Source: Macrotis lagotis
Taxonomy: Eukaryota > Chordata > Mammalia > Peramelemorphia > Peramelidae
Direction of reading: 5' to 3'
NCBI RefSeq assembly: GCF_037893015.1
Contig: NC_133666.1
Coordinates: 257,802,294-257,866,293, forward strand
Length of the DNA: 64,000 nucleotides
The position numbers and the translations under genes are program-made. The notes under the pieces are model-generated. The model saw nothing but the letters and a program-made list of their open reading frames with translations. It did not search any database and was not told the origin of the DNA. This document shows positions 26,501-63,700 of this stretch, piece by piece (the first letter of the stretch is position 1; every line of letters starts with the position of its first letter).

Positions 26501-27551
26501 TTGACCACATATTAGCACACCAAAACATCATAATCCACTGCAGAAAAGTAGAAATATCAAATGCATGATTTTCTGATCATGATGCAATAAAAATAATGTT
26601 AAATAATTTGAAACTAATTAACCTAATTTTAAAGAATGAGTGGATCAAACAAATTCTTGAAATAGCTAATAATTTTATCCAAGACATTGACAATAAGGAG
26701 ACAAATTATCAAAACTTGTAGAATGTAGTCGAAAGAGCTATGGGAAATTTTACATCTCTAAAAGCTTGCATGAATAAAATAGAGAAAAAGAAGATCAATG
26801 AATTGGGCATGTAAATAAAAAAAGCTAGAGAAAGAACAAAGTAAAAATACCCAAATAAAAATCAAATTAGAAATTCTGAAAAATCAAAGGAGAGATTAAT
26901 ATAATTAAAAATAAGAAAGGTATTAACCTAATAAATAAAATTAAGAGTTGGTTCTAGGGAAAAAGCAATAAAAAGATAAGCATTTGGTTAATTTGATTAA
27001 AAAAAGAAGAAAAACAAAATATGAGAATCAAAAATGAAAAAGGTGACTTCACCTCCAATGAGGAGGAAATTAAAGTAACATTTCAGTTACTTTACCCAAT
27101 TCAAAGTCAATAAATTTGACAATCTAAAAGAAATGAATTAATATTTACAAAAGTATGAATTGCCCATACTAACAAAGAAGAAATCAAATACTTAAAGTAC
27201 CCCATTTCAGAAAAAAATAGAAATTTAACAAGTCATCAATGAATTCCCTAAGGAAAAAATCTCCAGAATCAGCAGGATTCACAACTGAATTCTACCAGAA
27301 ATTTAAAGAACAGTTCCATTCAATTGTATATAAACTGTTTTAAAAAGTAGTTGATGGAGTTCTGAGAAATTCCTTTTATGATACCAATATGGCAACGTTA
27401 CCTAAATCAGGAAGAATAAAAAGCAAGAAAATTATATAACAATTTTCCTAATGACTATTGATGAAAAATTTTAATAAAATATTAGTGAAGAGATTACTGT
27501 AAGATGCCACTAGGATAATATGATATTCTCAAGTAGGATTTATACCAAGAA

Positions 27552-27557
27552 TGCAGG
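27552..27557. repeat. Left target-site duplication (6 bp) of the LTR element
   Basis: 'tgcagg' directly before the terminal TGTCGG. The same hexamer follows the other end at 29,165-29,170. The six bases occur once in the L1 reading frame here ('NAGK'), confirming a duplication of target DNA. Six bases is the stagger of betaretrovirus-type integrases. Confidence 0.93.
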
Positions 27558-27777
27558 TGTCGGGGGTCGGCCCTGACCGCCTGGCTGGATAGGACCTCCC
27601 CGGGAGTGAGGTCAGACCAACCCAGAGAAGACACGGCTTCTTAAGGGGAGCAGTGGCTTCGCCTGGTTGGCCTGTGTCGCTTGCTCCAATCGGGTGGTAG
27701 GTTCTGCCCTCGGGGCGGATTGGGGTGGCAGCCCGGAAATAACTCCCTATATTAACCAGCGCCCTGAGCTATTCGGG
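27558..27777 (+). repeat. Inverted U3 arm of the LTR element
   Basis: This 220-bp block is the reverse complement of 28,945-29,164, with about two differences. It starts at the LTR terminus (TGTCGG) and stops inside the LTR just past the TATA-like box, at 'attcggg', where STIMATE sequence begins. In a normal provirus this end would be a same-orientation LTR finishing in U5, so the arrangement is abnormal. Confidence 0.95.
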
Positions 27778-28464
27778 CTTCAAGGTGGTCAGTCTTCGAA
27801 GGTCCTCCTCTGCATCTGACTCTTCCATTTCGTCATCAGCAGACATTAATATTTCCGACTCAGATTCTTCATGGGATGCAGCCCGCCTATACCGGACTTT
27901 ACTTCCATTTCTTGAGTCCAAGCTAGTTTCTTTTTCTTCTAGCTTGGCTTTTGTCTTTCCCTTTTTCATAAGGAAATTATCCACAACCCAAAACATTAAT
28001 GCATTGACGAAGAAAGGAACTATCAGCATGACAATGGCCAACTCCAGCTGGGGGTTCTCAATAGGATTCAAAAGAGCTACCTTTTTCCACTGAGGTATTA
28101 GGAGGACGATGATGATGATGGTTTTCTCAAACATCATGATCACGATGTACAGAGCACACTTCCCAACCCAGGCACCACATTGCAGTGGGTCTCCATATTC
28201 TCCAAATCGAAGGGACTCCCATTGTTGCCACTCCACCAGAATGCTGACGGCTCGCACCCCTGCGTAGATCAGCAGCATCCCCAGGGTGGCATCGAGGAGG
28301 AAGTTGATAAGATACAGTGAACAAGGGTCCTCTTCAGTAAGGTCTGATAAGTAGACATTTGCAAAGTGGATGAATAACATTCCTATGGCTTGTTTGGAGG
28401 TATCAAGAAACCATATCCTCCATGGACGCCTTTCATGCTTTGGTTCTCTGAATCGTTTGATCAT
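27769..28464 (-). CDS. STIMATE: STIMATE (TMEM110) retrocopy open frame, exon 2 onward
   Basis: 231 codons, open throughout, closely matching vertebrate STIMATE from the second exon on. STIMATE is an endoplasmic-reticulum multi-pass protein that promotes STIM1 activation at ER-plasma membrane contacts in store-operated calcium entry. Visible landmarks: [20 protein letters not shown] near the start, hydrophobic segments at about residues 26-40, 51-78, 104-128 and 142-166, and the acidic stretch [20 protein letters not shown] near 205-224. The frame has no introns, so it is a reverse-transcribed copy. It lacks the first 50 or so residues of the parent (partly present at 28,672-28,767) and the lysine-rich C-terminal tail; the last codon and stop come from the LTR arm. 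The start is the ATG just ahead of ATCAAACG; the upstream piece is separated by about 207 bp. Whether it is expressed is unknown. Confidence 0.85.
27774..27777. other. 4-bp microhomology at STIMATE / inverted-arm junction
   Basis: On the minus strand the STIMATE text '...ttgaagcccg' meets the LTR text 'cccgaatagctc'. CCCG fits both the expected STIMATE codons (AAG CCC G) and the LTR, so the join is ambiguous over four bases. This is typical of template switching during reverse transcription. Confidence 0.7.
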
Positions 28465-28671
28465 AAGAAGTCATCTATGGGTCCTTCGGGTCATAGGAAG
28501 TCAGAGCAATAGGTCTTTACTGTGGCAGATCAAACTACAGAAAAGAAAATAGGATTTTGTTGGTGGTGGTTTCAACTTTGTACTCGCTTAGTCAGCCAAT
28601 AGGCAAAATATTTCTTCATTAGCTGCCAACAATGGAAGTATCATGCATGGTAAGAATCCTTCTTCCCCACG
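28465..28671 (-). other. 207-bp insert between the two STIMATE segments
   Basis: Lies at what appears to be the exon 1/exon 2 junction of the parent gene ('FSTLM' before, 'IKRFRE' after). It does not begin with GT or end with AG on the minus strand, so it is not a simple retained intron. It does contain a polypyrimidine-AG stretch ('ttttcttttctgtag' at about 28,537-28,551) and in-frame stops. It may be an alternative exon of the captured transcript or sequence acquired during capture. I cannot identify its source. Confidence 0.5.
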
Positions 28672-28767
28672 CATTAAGGTGCTGAAGGCCACGACGCCGA
28701 GCAGCCCCTGCAGGAAGATGCCGAAGCTGTCCATGAAGGCTCCGTTCTCGCAGCCCCGCTCGTTCAT
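28672..28767 (-). pseudogene. STIMATE: STIMATE exon 1 fragment
   Basis: Minus-strand translation gives [20 protein letters not shown] followed by VAFSTLM, matching the end of STIMATE exon 1 with its first membrane segment. It begins within three bases of the primer binding site, so the parent's first 20 or so codons and 5' UTR were not captured. The open frame starting upstream inside the LTR runs through it, but the residues ahead of CENG are viral or junctional and not STIMATE-derived. Confidence 0.85.
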
Positions 28768-28785
28768 GTCCCTGTTCGGGCGCCA
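28768..28785 (-). other. Retroviral primer binding site, tRNA-Lys type
   Basis: Minus strand reads 'tggcgcccgaacagggac', the 18-base complement of the tRNA-Lys(3) 3' end used by many betaretroviruses and lentiviruses. It sits four bases after the LTR end, as expected for a 5' leader, and directly precedes captured STIMATE sequence, so no packaging leader or gag remains. Confidence 0.95.
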
Positions 28786-28922
28786 GTTCTGTCCGGGGTC
28801 TTCTTCCCCGGACCCCCGAGTGAGCTCCTCAGTGGGCACTGCTTCAGGCGTCCCTGGTATTTCCCTCCCCCGGGAATCAGCGAGGAGGGACTCAGGCAGA
28901 CACGTCTTCAGGAGGCATATGT

Positions 28923-28928
28923 TTTATT
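28923..28928 (-). terminator. LTR polyadenylation signal AATAAA
   Basis: Minus strand 'cctaataaaacata' within the LTR. The inverted arm stops before this point, so the element has only this one LTR-type signal, upstream of STIMATE. Transcripts through the far end would need a signal from elsewhere. Confidence 0.6.
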
Positions 28929-28966
28929 AGGTGCAGAGGGATCCCCCGAATAGCTCAGGGCGCTGG

Positions 28967-28974
28967 TTAATATA
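28967..28974 (-). promoter_or_regulatory. TATA-like box in LTR U3
   Basis: Minus strand 'tatattaa', about 190 bp into the LTR and about 40 bp ahead of the AATAAA signal. The position suits the LTR promoter. It points toward the captured STIMATE sequence. A second copy lies in the inverted arm, pointing inward from the other side. Confidence 0.55.
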
Positions 28975-29164
28975 GGGAGTTATTTCCGGGCTGCCACCCC
29001 AATCCGCCCCGAGGGCAGAACCTACCACCCGATTGGAGCAAGCGACACAGGCCAACCAGGCGAAGCCACTGCTCCCCTTAAGGAGCCGTGTCTTCTCTGG
29101 GTTGGTCTGACCTCACTCCCGGGGAGGTCCTATCCACCCAGGCGGTCAGGGCCGACCCCCGACA

Positions 29165-29170
29165 TGCAGG
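29165..29170. repeat. Right target-site duplication (6 bp) of the LTR element
   Basis: 'tgcagg', identical to 27,552-27,557, after which L1 ORF2 sequence resumes ('aaagagggcatcaaaattat'). Confidence 0.93.
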
Positions 29171-30132
29171 AAAGAGGGCATCAAAATTATCTGTGCAATT
29201 GATCATATCAATAACAAACAGAAATAATATTATTATTTCAATAGCTGCTGAAAAATCTTTTAACAAAATGCAGTGCCCATTACTATTAAAAAACATTGGA
29301 GTGTATAGGAATAAATGGAGTGTTCCTCAAAATGAGAAGCAGTATCTTTATAAAACCATCAGCAAACATTATATTTAATTGGGGATAAGCCAGGAGCATT
29401 TCTAATAAAACCAAAGGTGAAAGAATGATGCCTATTATCAACACTATTATTCACTACTGTATTAAAAATGTCAGCTTTAACAATAACAGAAGAAAAAAGA
29501 AATTGATGAAATTAGAATTGATAATGAAGGAAAAAAAAACCCTTCTTTTTCTGCAGGTGTTAAAGTATACGTAGAGAATTCTAATCAACTAAATGAACTA
29601 AAACACCACTTAAAGCAGTTAGCAACTTTGGAAAAGTTGCAACATAAAATAAACCCACATAAACCATCAAGTTTTATACATAATATCAACAAAGCCCAGC
29701 AGCAAGAGAAAAGAGAAAATCCATTAAAAATTAAAGTAACTGTAGACAACCTAAAATATTTTAGAGTCTAATTGCCAAGACAAACTCAAATACTATATGA
29801 AAACAATTATAAACCACCTTTGACACAAATAAAATCAGTTCTAAATAATTGGGCACATGTAAATTGCTAATGGGTAGGTTGAGCTAATTTGATAAAAATG
29901 ACAATTCTACCTACATTAAATTTCTTATTCAATGCCAAAACAGTCAAACTATCAAAATTACTTTATTGAACTAGTATATACCTAAATTCTTCAGGAGAAA
30001 CAAAAGGTCACGAATATCAAGAGAATTATTGAAAAAATGCAAAGGAAAGAGACCTAGCCAAACTAGAACTGAATCATATTATAAAACATCCATCACCATA
30101 ATTGTCTGGTACTGGCTAAGAAATAGAGTGGT

Positions 30133-47942: not shown

Positions 47943-47992
47943 AGAGAACAGGAAGAAGAAGAAGAAGAAGAAGAAGAAGAAGAAGAAGAAAA

Positions 47993-48048
<56 letters not shown>

Positions 48049-48220
48049 GAGATAAAGAAAGAAAGAAGGAGAAGGAGGAGGGGGAGAAGGAGAAGGAGAA
48101 GGAGAAGAAGGAGAAGGAGAAGAACAAGAAGGAGGAGCAGGAGGAGGAGAAGGCCAAGGACAAGGACGAGGCCAAGAAGGAGGAGGATTAAGATGAGGAG
48201 GAGGAAGAGTGAAGGAGAGA
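47943..48220 (+). repeat. 280-bp polypurine tract: (GA), (GAA), (GAAA), (GGAGAA)
   Basis: The plus strand is almost wholly A and G: (GAA)n about 47,955-47,990, (GAAA)n about 47,990-48,045, then (GGAGAA)-like repeats to about 48,220, with only a handful of pyrimidines. Overlapping long open frames in four phases (99-144 codons of Glu, Lys, Arg, Ser, Phe or Leu repeats) are artefacts. Such tracts can form triplex DNA. Confidence 0.95.
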
Positions 48221-60769: not shown

Positions 60770-63700
60770 GAAGTAAAAAAGAAAATGTGTTATATCTGAA
60801 CACTGCCCTCCCCTGGTCCATCCTCTCCTCCATCACTCCCATCCCCCCCTTACCGCTGTCCCTCCCTCTCCTTCTTACTATAGATGCCTATACCCCATTG
60901 AGTATATATGCTGTTTCCTCTCCTAGCCACCTCTGATGAGAGCAACAATTCCTTCTTTCCCCCTTGTCTTCCCCCTTTCCATATCATTGTAATAGCTCAT
61001 GGTAATAAAGAAAAATCTTATTATATGAAATATCTTGACCTATTTCCCTTCTCCTTTTTCTTTTTCCTATTACATTTCCCTGTTTTTCTATTGACTCCAT
61101 TTTTACACCATATTTTATCTTCGAATTCAGCTTTCTCCTGTGCTTCAACTATAAAAGCTCCCACTACCTGCTCTATTAACTGAGAAGGTTCAAATGAGTA
61201 TTATCAATGTCATTTTTCTATACAGGAATACATGCAGTTCATCATTATTAAGTCCCTCATGTTTTGCCCTTCTCCTCCAATCTCTATGCTTCACCTGAGT
61301 CCTGTATCTGAAGATCAAAACTTCTGTTCAGCTCTGGCCATTCCAACAGGAACATTTGAAATTCCCCTGGTTCATTGAAAGTCTATCTTTTTCCCTGGAA
61401 GAGGACATTCAGCCTTGTGCGTAGTTGATTCTTGGCTGTATTCTAAGCTCTTTTGCCTTCCGGTATGTTATATTCCAAGCCTTACGAGCTTCCAATGTAG
61501 TTGCTGCTCAGTCCTGTGTGATCCTGACTGCAGCTACATGATATTTGAACTGTGTCCTTCTTGCTGCTTGCAATATTTTCTTTTTGACTTGGGAGTTCTG
61601 GAACTTGGCTGTAATATTTCTAGGGCTTGATTTTTTGGGATCTCTTTCTCGGGGGGATCAGTGGATTCTCCCCATTTCTATTTTGCCCTCTGCTTCTAGA
61701 ATATCAGGACAATTTTCCTGTAGTAATTCTTTTAAAATGATTTCAGGGCTCTTTTCCTGATCATGACTTTCAGGTATTCCAATAATTTTTAAATTATCTT
61801 ACCTATGTCTATTTTCCATATCAGTTGTTTTTTCAATGAGATATTTCACATTTTCTTCTAAACATTCATTTTTTTGGTTTTGAAATATTGATTCCTGATT
61901 TCTGGTAAATTCAGCAATCTCCTTAATTCTATTTTTTGTCTGAAGGATTTGTTCTTCTCAGAGAGTTTTCTTATCTATTTTTTCCATCTGGCCAATTCTG
62001 CTTTTTTAAAGCATTCTTCTCCTCCATAACTCTTTGAACTGTTTTATCCATTTGACCTAAGCTGGTTTTTAGCATGCTATTTTCTTCAGCATTTTTTTGG
62101 ATTTCCTTGACTAGGCTGCTGACTTCATTTTCATGTTTTTCTTGCATCTCTCTCATTTCTTTTCCCAGTTTTTCTTCTAACTCCCTCATTTGATTTTCAA
62201 AGTCTTTTTTGGAGTCTGTCATAGCCTGAGCCCAATTTCTGTTTTTCTTGGAGTCTTTAGATGCAGGAGCTTGTGCTTCCTCATCTTCAAATTGAGTATT
62301 TTGATCCTTCTTGGGTTCATTTGCAAAATATTTCTCAATGGTGTTCCTCTTTTTTCTCTTCTTGCTCATTTTCCTAGCCTGAGCTTGGTTTTGGGTTGCT
62401 TTCTGTGCTTTTGGGACACCCCCACAAGGATCTCAGTGTGTGAAGCTCTGTCTTCCCTCCTGGTCTGTGAATGACCATATGCATCCCCCTCTGCCACGGG
62501 GCTGAGGTGGGGGGGACCGTGCTGTTCTATTGGGGGGGGGGGGCTAGACTGCAATTAGGATCTGAATTTGGGCAGAGCCCCAGAGTCCTGTTCCAGGGAC
62601 AGAGGACAGAGCTCTGCAGTCTCTGTCTTCATTCCCCTCTATTGGTTCAATGGGCTCTTGCCCTGGGGGCTCCTGCTTACAAGCTCTGCCTGCTTCTGTT
62701 TCCTGGAACTCAGATGTGCTGGCTGGCCACTCTGCTCACAGTGTTCCTTGAGGACTGGGCTTCACGTGTTCACTCTGGCAGAAGTCCCCTGCTGTTCCCC
62801 CAATTTGTGCTTGATGCTCCCCAGGGCTTAGCTCAGGAAACCCCCCCCCCCCCGTGTGAGCTGTGGCTCTCAGTGCCCTGGGACTTCCTCCGGGAGGCTG
62901 AAGTTCTTTTGCTCTGGCGGGCTGCCACTCCAATCCTGGGGAACAGAGCCTTTCTGCTCTTTGCAGGTTACCTTGAGTAGGACAACTGCCTCCCTGGGTC
63001 CCTCTTTGAGTTCTGTCTCTCAAAAATTTAGTTAGAGTCTTTATCTTATGAGTTTTAGAGAGAGCACCTAAGACAGGATCCTTTCTTGTCACCGTCTTGG
63101 CTCTGCCCCCCCCCGTATTCTTTCAATAACTATTTTGCCCTCTGGTTCCATGATATTAGGGCACTTTTCCATCACAAAATCCTGTAATATTAAGTCCAGA
63201 CTTTTTTTTTCCTTTTCAATGTTTTCATGAAGCCCAATGATTCTTAGATCATCTCTCCTTGTTCTATTCTTAAAGTCAGTAGTTTTGCTGATGAGGTATT
63301 TTACATTTTCTTCTATTTTTTTGATTTTTTGGTTTTGTTTAACAGATTTTTGTTGTCTTGTAAAGTCATTACTTTCCACAGATTCCATTTTTTTAAGAGA
63401 AGAATTTTCTTTATTTACTTTTTGCAACTCCTTTTTCATTTGGTCAATTCTATTTTGAAGGAGTTTTCCATTTGCCCAAGTGTAGTTTTGAGAGAATCAT
63501 TTTCTTTTTGCATTTGTCCAATTGTATTTTTCAAGAATTTGATTTCTTATTGCAAGATATTAATTTTCTCTTGTATGTCTTTTTCCAATTTTTCCAATTG
63601 ATTTTTAAGCTCCTTCTTGATTTCTTCCAGGAAGTCTTTCTGGACTAGAAACCAATTCATGTTCTTGGTAGAAGTTCTAGATCTCTCTGAGTCAGAGGCT

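Follow-up and report, generated by a model that had tools for sequence, protein, structure and literature searches.

A spliced STIMATE cDNA between oppositely oriented U3 ends in the genome of Macrotis lagotis, a putative product of abnormal retroviral reverse transcription

General features and integration site

The stretch of the Macrotis lagotis genome analyzed here (64,000 nucleotides, hereafter the window) contains a 1,607 bp element in which an intronless copy of the host gene STIMATE lies between a complete long terminal repeat (LTR) and an inverted copy of the U3 region of the same LTR. Read on the minus strand from 29,164 to 27,558, it consists of the LTR, the tetranucleotide GAAC, a primer-binding site, the pentanucleotide ATGAA, the STIMATE cDNA and, at the far end, LTR bases 1-220 in reverse complement. 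The original prediction had proposed just such an order of LTR, Lys-type primer site, spliced STIMATE and inverted U3, and each of these parts was located. We consider it reasonably probable that the element is a single integrated product of abnormal reverse transcription.

Both termini of the element are the start of U3, TGTCGGGGG.., and the outer side of each is abutted by the same 6 bp direct repeat, CCTGCA on the minus strand (TGCAGG on the plus strand), at 29165..29170 beside the 5' LTR and at 27552..27557 beside the inverted arm. Such a duplication of fixed length is of the integrase type, and equal 6-mers at the spacing of the element occur at 40 of 62,381 window positions. The presence of CCTGCA at both ends therefore fits a single integration event best, and the molecule that was integrated would have carried two U3 termini in opposite directions. 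Target duplications of 6 nt are made by betaretroviruses and also by alpharetroviruses (PMC12789967). The attachment sites of retroviruses, one at the end of U3 and one at that of U5, are described as imperfect inverted repeats; the two ends of the LTR agree at 10 of their first 11 bases, which makes two U3 ends plausible as integrase substrates.

The inverted arms (27,558-27,777 and 28,945-29,164) align with each other over 220 nt with two mismatches, at LTR positions 28 and 82 (blastn within the window, E = 8e-110). At a mammalian neutral rate, this divergence suggests an age of about a million to a few million years, a rough guide rather than a dating. The flanks outside the two arms are unique and differ from each other. 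The element stands out from its AT-rich surroundings, with a G+C content of 52% compared with 28-30% in the 500 bp flanks. Elsewhere in the window, a long GA-rich tract of low complexity (47952-48209) has open frames of 110-145 aa on both strands, and the broken coiled-coil frames at 61971-63496 (minus strand) resemble an L1 ORF1 protein by eye, with weak Pfam matches below the curated cut-offs.

The LTR, the primer-binding site and the inverted arm

The complete LTR (28790..29164, minus strand) is 375 bp long and has TG..CA ends (TGTCGGGGGTC...GACCCCGGACA). It contains a TATA box, TATATTAA, at LTR 191-198 (28967..28974, minus strand) and the polyadenylation signal AATAAA at LTR 237-242 (28923..28928, minus strand). 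U3 is assigned to LTR 1-217 (28948..29164, minus strand), with a border to R that is predicted from the distance to the TATA box only, within about 5 nt. Four nucleotides (GAAC) past the LTR end ..GGACA begins an 18-nt primer-binding site, TGGCGCCCGAACAGGGAC (28768..28785, minus strand), which we take to be of the tRNA-Lys3 type. TG..CA ends, a TATA box, AATAAA and a tRNA primer site just inside the 5' LTR are all hallmarks of LTR retroelements, and derivation of the element from an LTR retroelement or endogenous retrovirus (ERV) is supported by their joint presence.

A second LTR of equal orientation behind a polypurine tract, as an ordinary element would have, is missing from the other end, where blastn against the window gives no sense copy. 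The element ends instead in the inverted arm, which carries LTR bases 1-220 with the two mismatches in plus LTR orientation (27558..27777, plus strand). Its TATA box (27748..27755, plus strand; antisense position 191) points antisense toward the body of STIMATE. The arm had been described as the first 220 bp of the LTR; the match is indeed 220 nt long, but its length is not arbitrary and corresponds to the whole of U3 as predicted by the position of the TATA box.

No further LTR copy was detected in the window by blastn of the element, the best other match being 19 nt long (E = 0.086). Pattern scans of viral contigs with the LTR start and with the 18-nt primer site returned 0 matches each. A protein search with an antisense U3 frame, aimed at predicted proteins that overlap LTR copies, gave two candidates, neither with E <= 0.1. 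Folding of the R-U5-primer site region revealed no unusual structure (z = 0.05), and Rfam and tRNA scans found nothing on the element. In another part of the window, Rfam scores 45602-45674 (minus strand) as tRNA-like right at its cut-off (29.8 bits, E = 0.035); ARAGORN does not call this match, which is probably a tRNA-derived SINE.

The captured STIMATE cDNA

STIMATE is a calcium-signalling gene. The identity of the captured sequence is established by a 231-aa open reading frame (ORF; 27769..28464, minus strand) that matches Pfam PF12400 (E = 2.4e-33) and covers STIMATE without the exon 1 part, its last residue and stop codon being supplied by the inverted U3. The first and last STIMATE residues are missing from the copy. 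It begins within a 5'-truncated exon 1 (28671..28762, minus strand; from ERGCEN to ..TTAATGC) and extends, intronless, from exon 2 to ..LK (27778..28460, minus strand), the cDNA as a whole spanning part of exon 1 to the codons for LKP. An extra segment of 210 nt (28461..28670, minus strand) lies exactly between exons 1 and 2. When it is set aside, 259 STIMATE codons align without gaps to marsupial STIMATE, with 3 differing residues in the brushtail possum Trichosurus and 4 each in Gracilinanus and Sarcophilus; a tammar isoform with an alternative first exon differs at 7 of 229 residues. Among the best 120 of 804 protein matches to the 231-aa frame, the best marsupial records (Trichosurus, Gracilinanus and Sarcophilus) are 98% identical across the whole query. 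Records from Pangasius (84% identity) and Marmota (89%) rank higher by E-value than the marsupial ones, and the marsupial assignment therefore rests on identity. That a spliced STIMATE had been captured, as originally proposed, is borne out: introns are absent, and exons 1 and 2 are joined with the frame kept once the 210 nt are removed. A search of solved structures with the STIMATE part gave 0 matches.

The border between exons 1 and 2 was confirmed with 13 exon 1 proteins, examined out of 35 matches: 12 depart from STIMATE right after STLM, and the thirteenth continues into exon 2. A mouse STIMATE record (P0154) also shows other residues past exon 1. The 210-nt segment keeps the splice phase of exon 2, as a cassette exon in a packaged RNA would; it contains an internal pyrimidine tract and AG and would bring in a stop codon. 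As the unspliced start of intron 1 it is disfavoured: it opens with GTGGGG, whereas the intron is expected to begin with GTGAG, in keeping with the R-E or C-E with which 9 of the 12 departing proteins read on. From these comparisons the segment appears likelier to be a cassette exon than the start of intron 1, which falls short of proof. A second ORF, of 59 aa (28588..28767, minus strand), starts with an ATG at the primer-site junction, is in frame with exon 1 and stops inside the segment.

Of the 21 stop-to-stop ORFs of at least 50 aa that overlap 27,300-29,500, two were scanned and gave no viral domain; in line with the original prediction, no viral gene was recognised in the element. A processed pseudogene made by L1 is rejected: the sense strand of the element has no run of 8 or more A, and the target duplication lies outside the U3 ends, not around the cDNA. 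The element instead holds a host mRNA copied without introns and fused to LTR-element sequence, as expected of an LTR-mediated retrocopy.

The two junctions

At the 5' junction, the primer site is followed by ATGAA (28763..28767, minus strand), directly upstream of the truncated exon 1. Positions 58-54 of tRNA-Lys3, when copied, would presumably read TTGAA. ATGAA is equal in length to a copy that stops at U54, and its lone mismatch falls at m1A58; by chance, an NTGAA is present at 506 of the 63,995 window positions. As a rule, plus-strand strong-stop DNA stops at the 18th nucleotide of the tRNA copy due to m1A58, with minor products ending at Psi55 and m5Um54, according to one account (PMC13191261). 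Misincorporation by reverse transcriptase opposite m1A has been reported, dA included, and the m1A-G context, which is that of the tRNA, is described as giving a low C signal and more than one misincorporated base (PMC4787781); dA is therefore compatible with these data and not specifically predicted by them. The pentanucleotide would fit a copy of tRNA-Lys3 over-extended past m1A58 as far as U54, the base at m1A58 being the one misread. It could also be the native leader of the parent ERV; a matching 'primer over-extension sequence' is described in the leader of many Lys3 lentiviruses and spumaviruses (PMC13191261).

The 3' junction contains CCCG (27774..27777, minus strand), which is common to STIMATE, where it represents CCC of a Pro codon and the G of any Val codon, and to the reverse complement of U3, where CGGG is LTR 217-220. 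The identity of the arm reaches LTR 220; given the shared CGGG, the viral part ends somewhere at LTR 216-220. Counted from the first T of the TATA box, LTR 217-222 is 26-31 nt away, and the break therefore falls where R should begin. Judged by the TATA box, the inverted arm would be the whole of U3, ending in the G-run at the predicted start of R. Breakpoints at U3/R have generally been ascribed to first-strand transfer, while the authors of one study argue that some arise via second-strand transfer (PMC5651808). A STIMATE strand that ended in CCC would, in our view, have played the part of minus-strand strong-stop DNA at the G-run of R. Microhomology is limited to the 4 nt of the 3' junction; none could be established at the 5' junction.

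Proposed mechanism and alternative origins

In the established retroviral pathway, the start of U3 at a DNA end is made by polypurine tract (PPT) priming of plus-strand DNA (PMC13191261). Both ends of the integrated DNA are U3 starts; hence plus-strand strong-stop DNA would be needed at each end, a step that we hold with considerable confidence. The full account, with an order of transfers that we infer from one locus, is the one we favour on balance. Inside an ERV particle, plus-strand strong-stop DNA primed at the PPT (U3-R-U5-primer site) would have run 5 nt beyond the usual m1A58 stop of tRNA-Lys3. Its 3' end would then have been joined to truncated STIMATE cDNA and extended along STIMATE. 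At the other end, the favoured version is that the STIMATE strand ending in ..CCC replaced minus-strand strong-stop DNA, was transferred onto the ERV RNA at the G-run that opens R and copied U3, after which a second PPT-primed U3 would have become the other terminus. Alternatively, a U3-only strong-stop DNA may have primed directly on STIMATE RNA through CGGG:CCCG. The two versions predict an identical product and are not separated by the sequence. An integrase supplied in trans would finally have used the two U3 ends. Against the full account stand the need for two abnormal transfers within one molecule, the scant microhomology at the junctions, the U3/R border, which is a prediction, and the reading of ATGAA as native leader.

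That the proteins acted in trans and that reverse transcription was aberrant had been suggested in the original prediction, and both are natural inferences since there is no recognised viral gene between the two U3 ends. Its attribution of these proteins to a class II ERV is only partly sustained: the Lys-type primer site, the short (375 bp) LTR and the 6 bp repeat are compatible with class II, but they are not exclusive to betaretroviruses, as alpharetroviruses also make 6-nt repeats, and no parental gag, pol or env was seen.

The strongest competitor, which we nevertheless regard as rather unlikely, is an ordinary LTR-mediated retrocopy. Minus-strand synthesis would have switched from STIMATE RNA to the ERV leader beside the primer site, second-strand transfer would have been normal, ATGAA would be native, and the 3' end alone would be odd. 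The model accepted for LTR-linked retrocopies is template switching via microsimilarity (PMC5408686), KoRV is described as holding spliced BCL2L1 joined by microhomologies (PMC7910482), and Lys3 viruses can show tRNA-like letters past the primer site (PMC13191261). However, under this explanation it is a coincidence that the 5' junction lies no more than 5-6 nt from the primer site, and no inverted terminal U3 results, so that this end would still need plus-strand strong-stop DNA.

It is very unlikely that a normal LTR-STIMATE-LTR provirus was rearranged after integration, with its 3' LTR inverted and R-U5 lost, or that two insertions occurred in opposite directions. Inversions between repeats do occur, and with two arm mismatches the element is old enough for later events. 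Yet an inversion break exactly at the border of LTR and target would be needed together with an exact deletion of R-U5, and an inversion after integration is rejected on the CCTGCA present on the outer side of both arms, a coincidence as rare as the 6-mer count above. Inverted repeats are also prone to assembly error, and the element might be an inverted collapse or a chimeric join; such an artefact is highly improbable, as it would not be expected to yield target-site repeats, two arm-specific mismatches, unique and differing flanks and a microhomology junction at U3/R. Finally, a Pack-type DNA transposon that took up STIMATE would match in outline (terminal inverted repeats of 220 nt around a gene piece, and a target repeat) but is hardly credible, and we reject it: by structure the ends of the element are U3, part of an LTR that has TG..CA termini, a TATA box and AATAAA and is followed at the proper distance by a Lys-type primer site, and the cargo is intronless cDNA.

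Implications

Most likely the locus is a passive fossil, one that carries an LTR with a promoter and an open, if truncated, STIMATE frame. Host genes in retroviruses are normally read as template switches within a provirus. We raise tentatively, from the architecture of this locus, the possibility of a separate route of gene capture, in which strong-stop DNA would be a prefabricated adaptor: a host cDNA capped with it at both ends would be competent for integrase without a viral body. The locus would then preserve, as a fossil in the genome, a misreading of m1A58 of the primer tRNA-Lys3 by reverse transcriptase. With the TATA box of the inverted U3 facing the gene from behind, the locus would also be a natural convergent-promoter construct, predicted to give sense and antisense STIMATE RNA. 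The presence of a cDNA between two U3 ends in inverted orientation indicates that a U5 end is not required for integration and that strong-stop DNA may serve as a gene-capture intermediate. Its breakpoints would record the m1A58 stop and the U3/R transfer, steps on which most work has been done in vitro or in cultured cells. Any genome can be screened directly for the pattern of a host cDNA between opposite U3 ends; such elements would escape standard LTR finders that demand LTRs of equal orientation. The practical weight of this route hinges on the existence of more than one such locus.

Comparison with known systems

The KoRV-BCL2L1 provirus of the koala (PMC7910482) resembles the Macrotis element in being from a marsupial retrovirus with exact host splice joins, microhomology joints and loss of viral genes. 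As described there, the host gene lies inside env in a KoRV proviral framework with gag and pol mostly replaced, whereas the Macrotis element has no viral body at all and its second end is an inverted U3. The LTR-mediated retrocopies of metazoans (Tan et al. 2016, as presented in PMC5408686) are similar in that cellular mRNA is joined to the cDNA of the element by template switching and inserted by its integrase; the model presented uses the normal ends of the element, while those of the Macrotis element are both U3, in opposite directions. The processed pseudogene obtained with a packaging mutant of RSV (Linial 1987, cited in PMC4997597) is alike in that an encapsidated non-viral RNA was reverse-transcribed and inserted through retroviral infection, and the cited account of it is silent on U3 caps. 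Endogenous betaretroviruses (PMC3621094) share the Lys tRNA primer site and, in type-D-like members, LTRs of 300-500 bp; the Macrotis element differs from them in lacking gag, pro, pol and env. Pack-TIR (Pack-MULE-like) DNA transposons (PMC8277862) also carry gene fragments between terminal inverted repeats, but the repeats of the Macrotis element are LTR sequence and its cargo is cDNA.

We found no report of a host cDNA between inverted U3 ends in the open-licence literature, a weak absence given its thin coverage of older retrovirology. Retroviral capture of spliced host RNA, in marsupials as well, and LTR-linked retrocopies are already known; the inverted U3 terminus may be the new feature that the Macrotis element adds to them.
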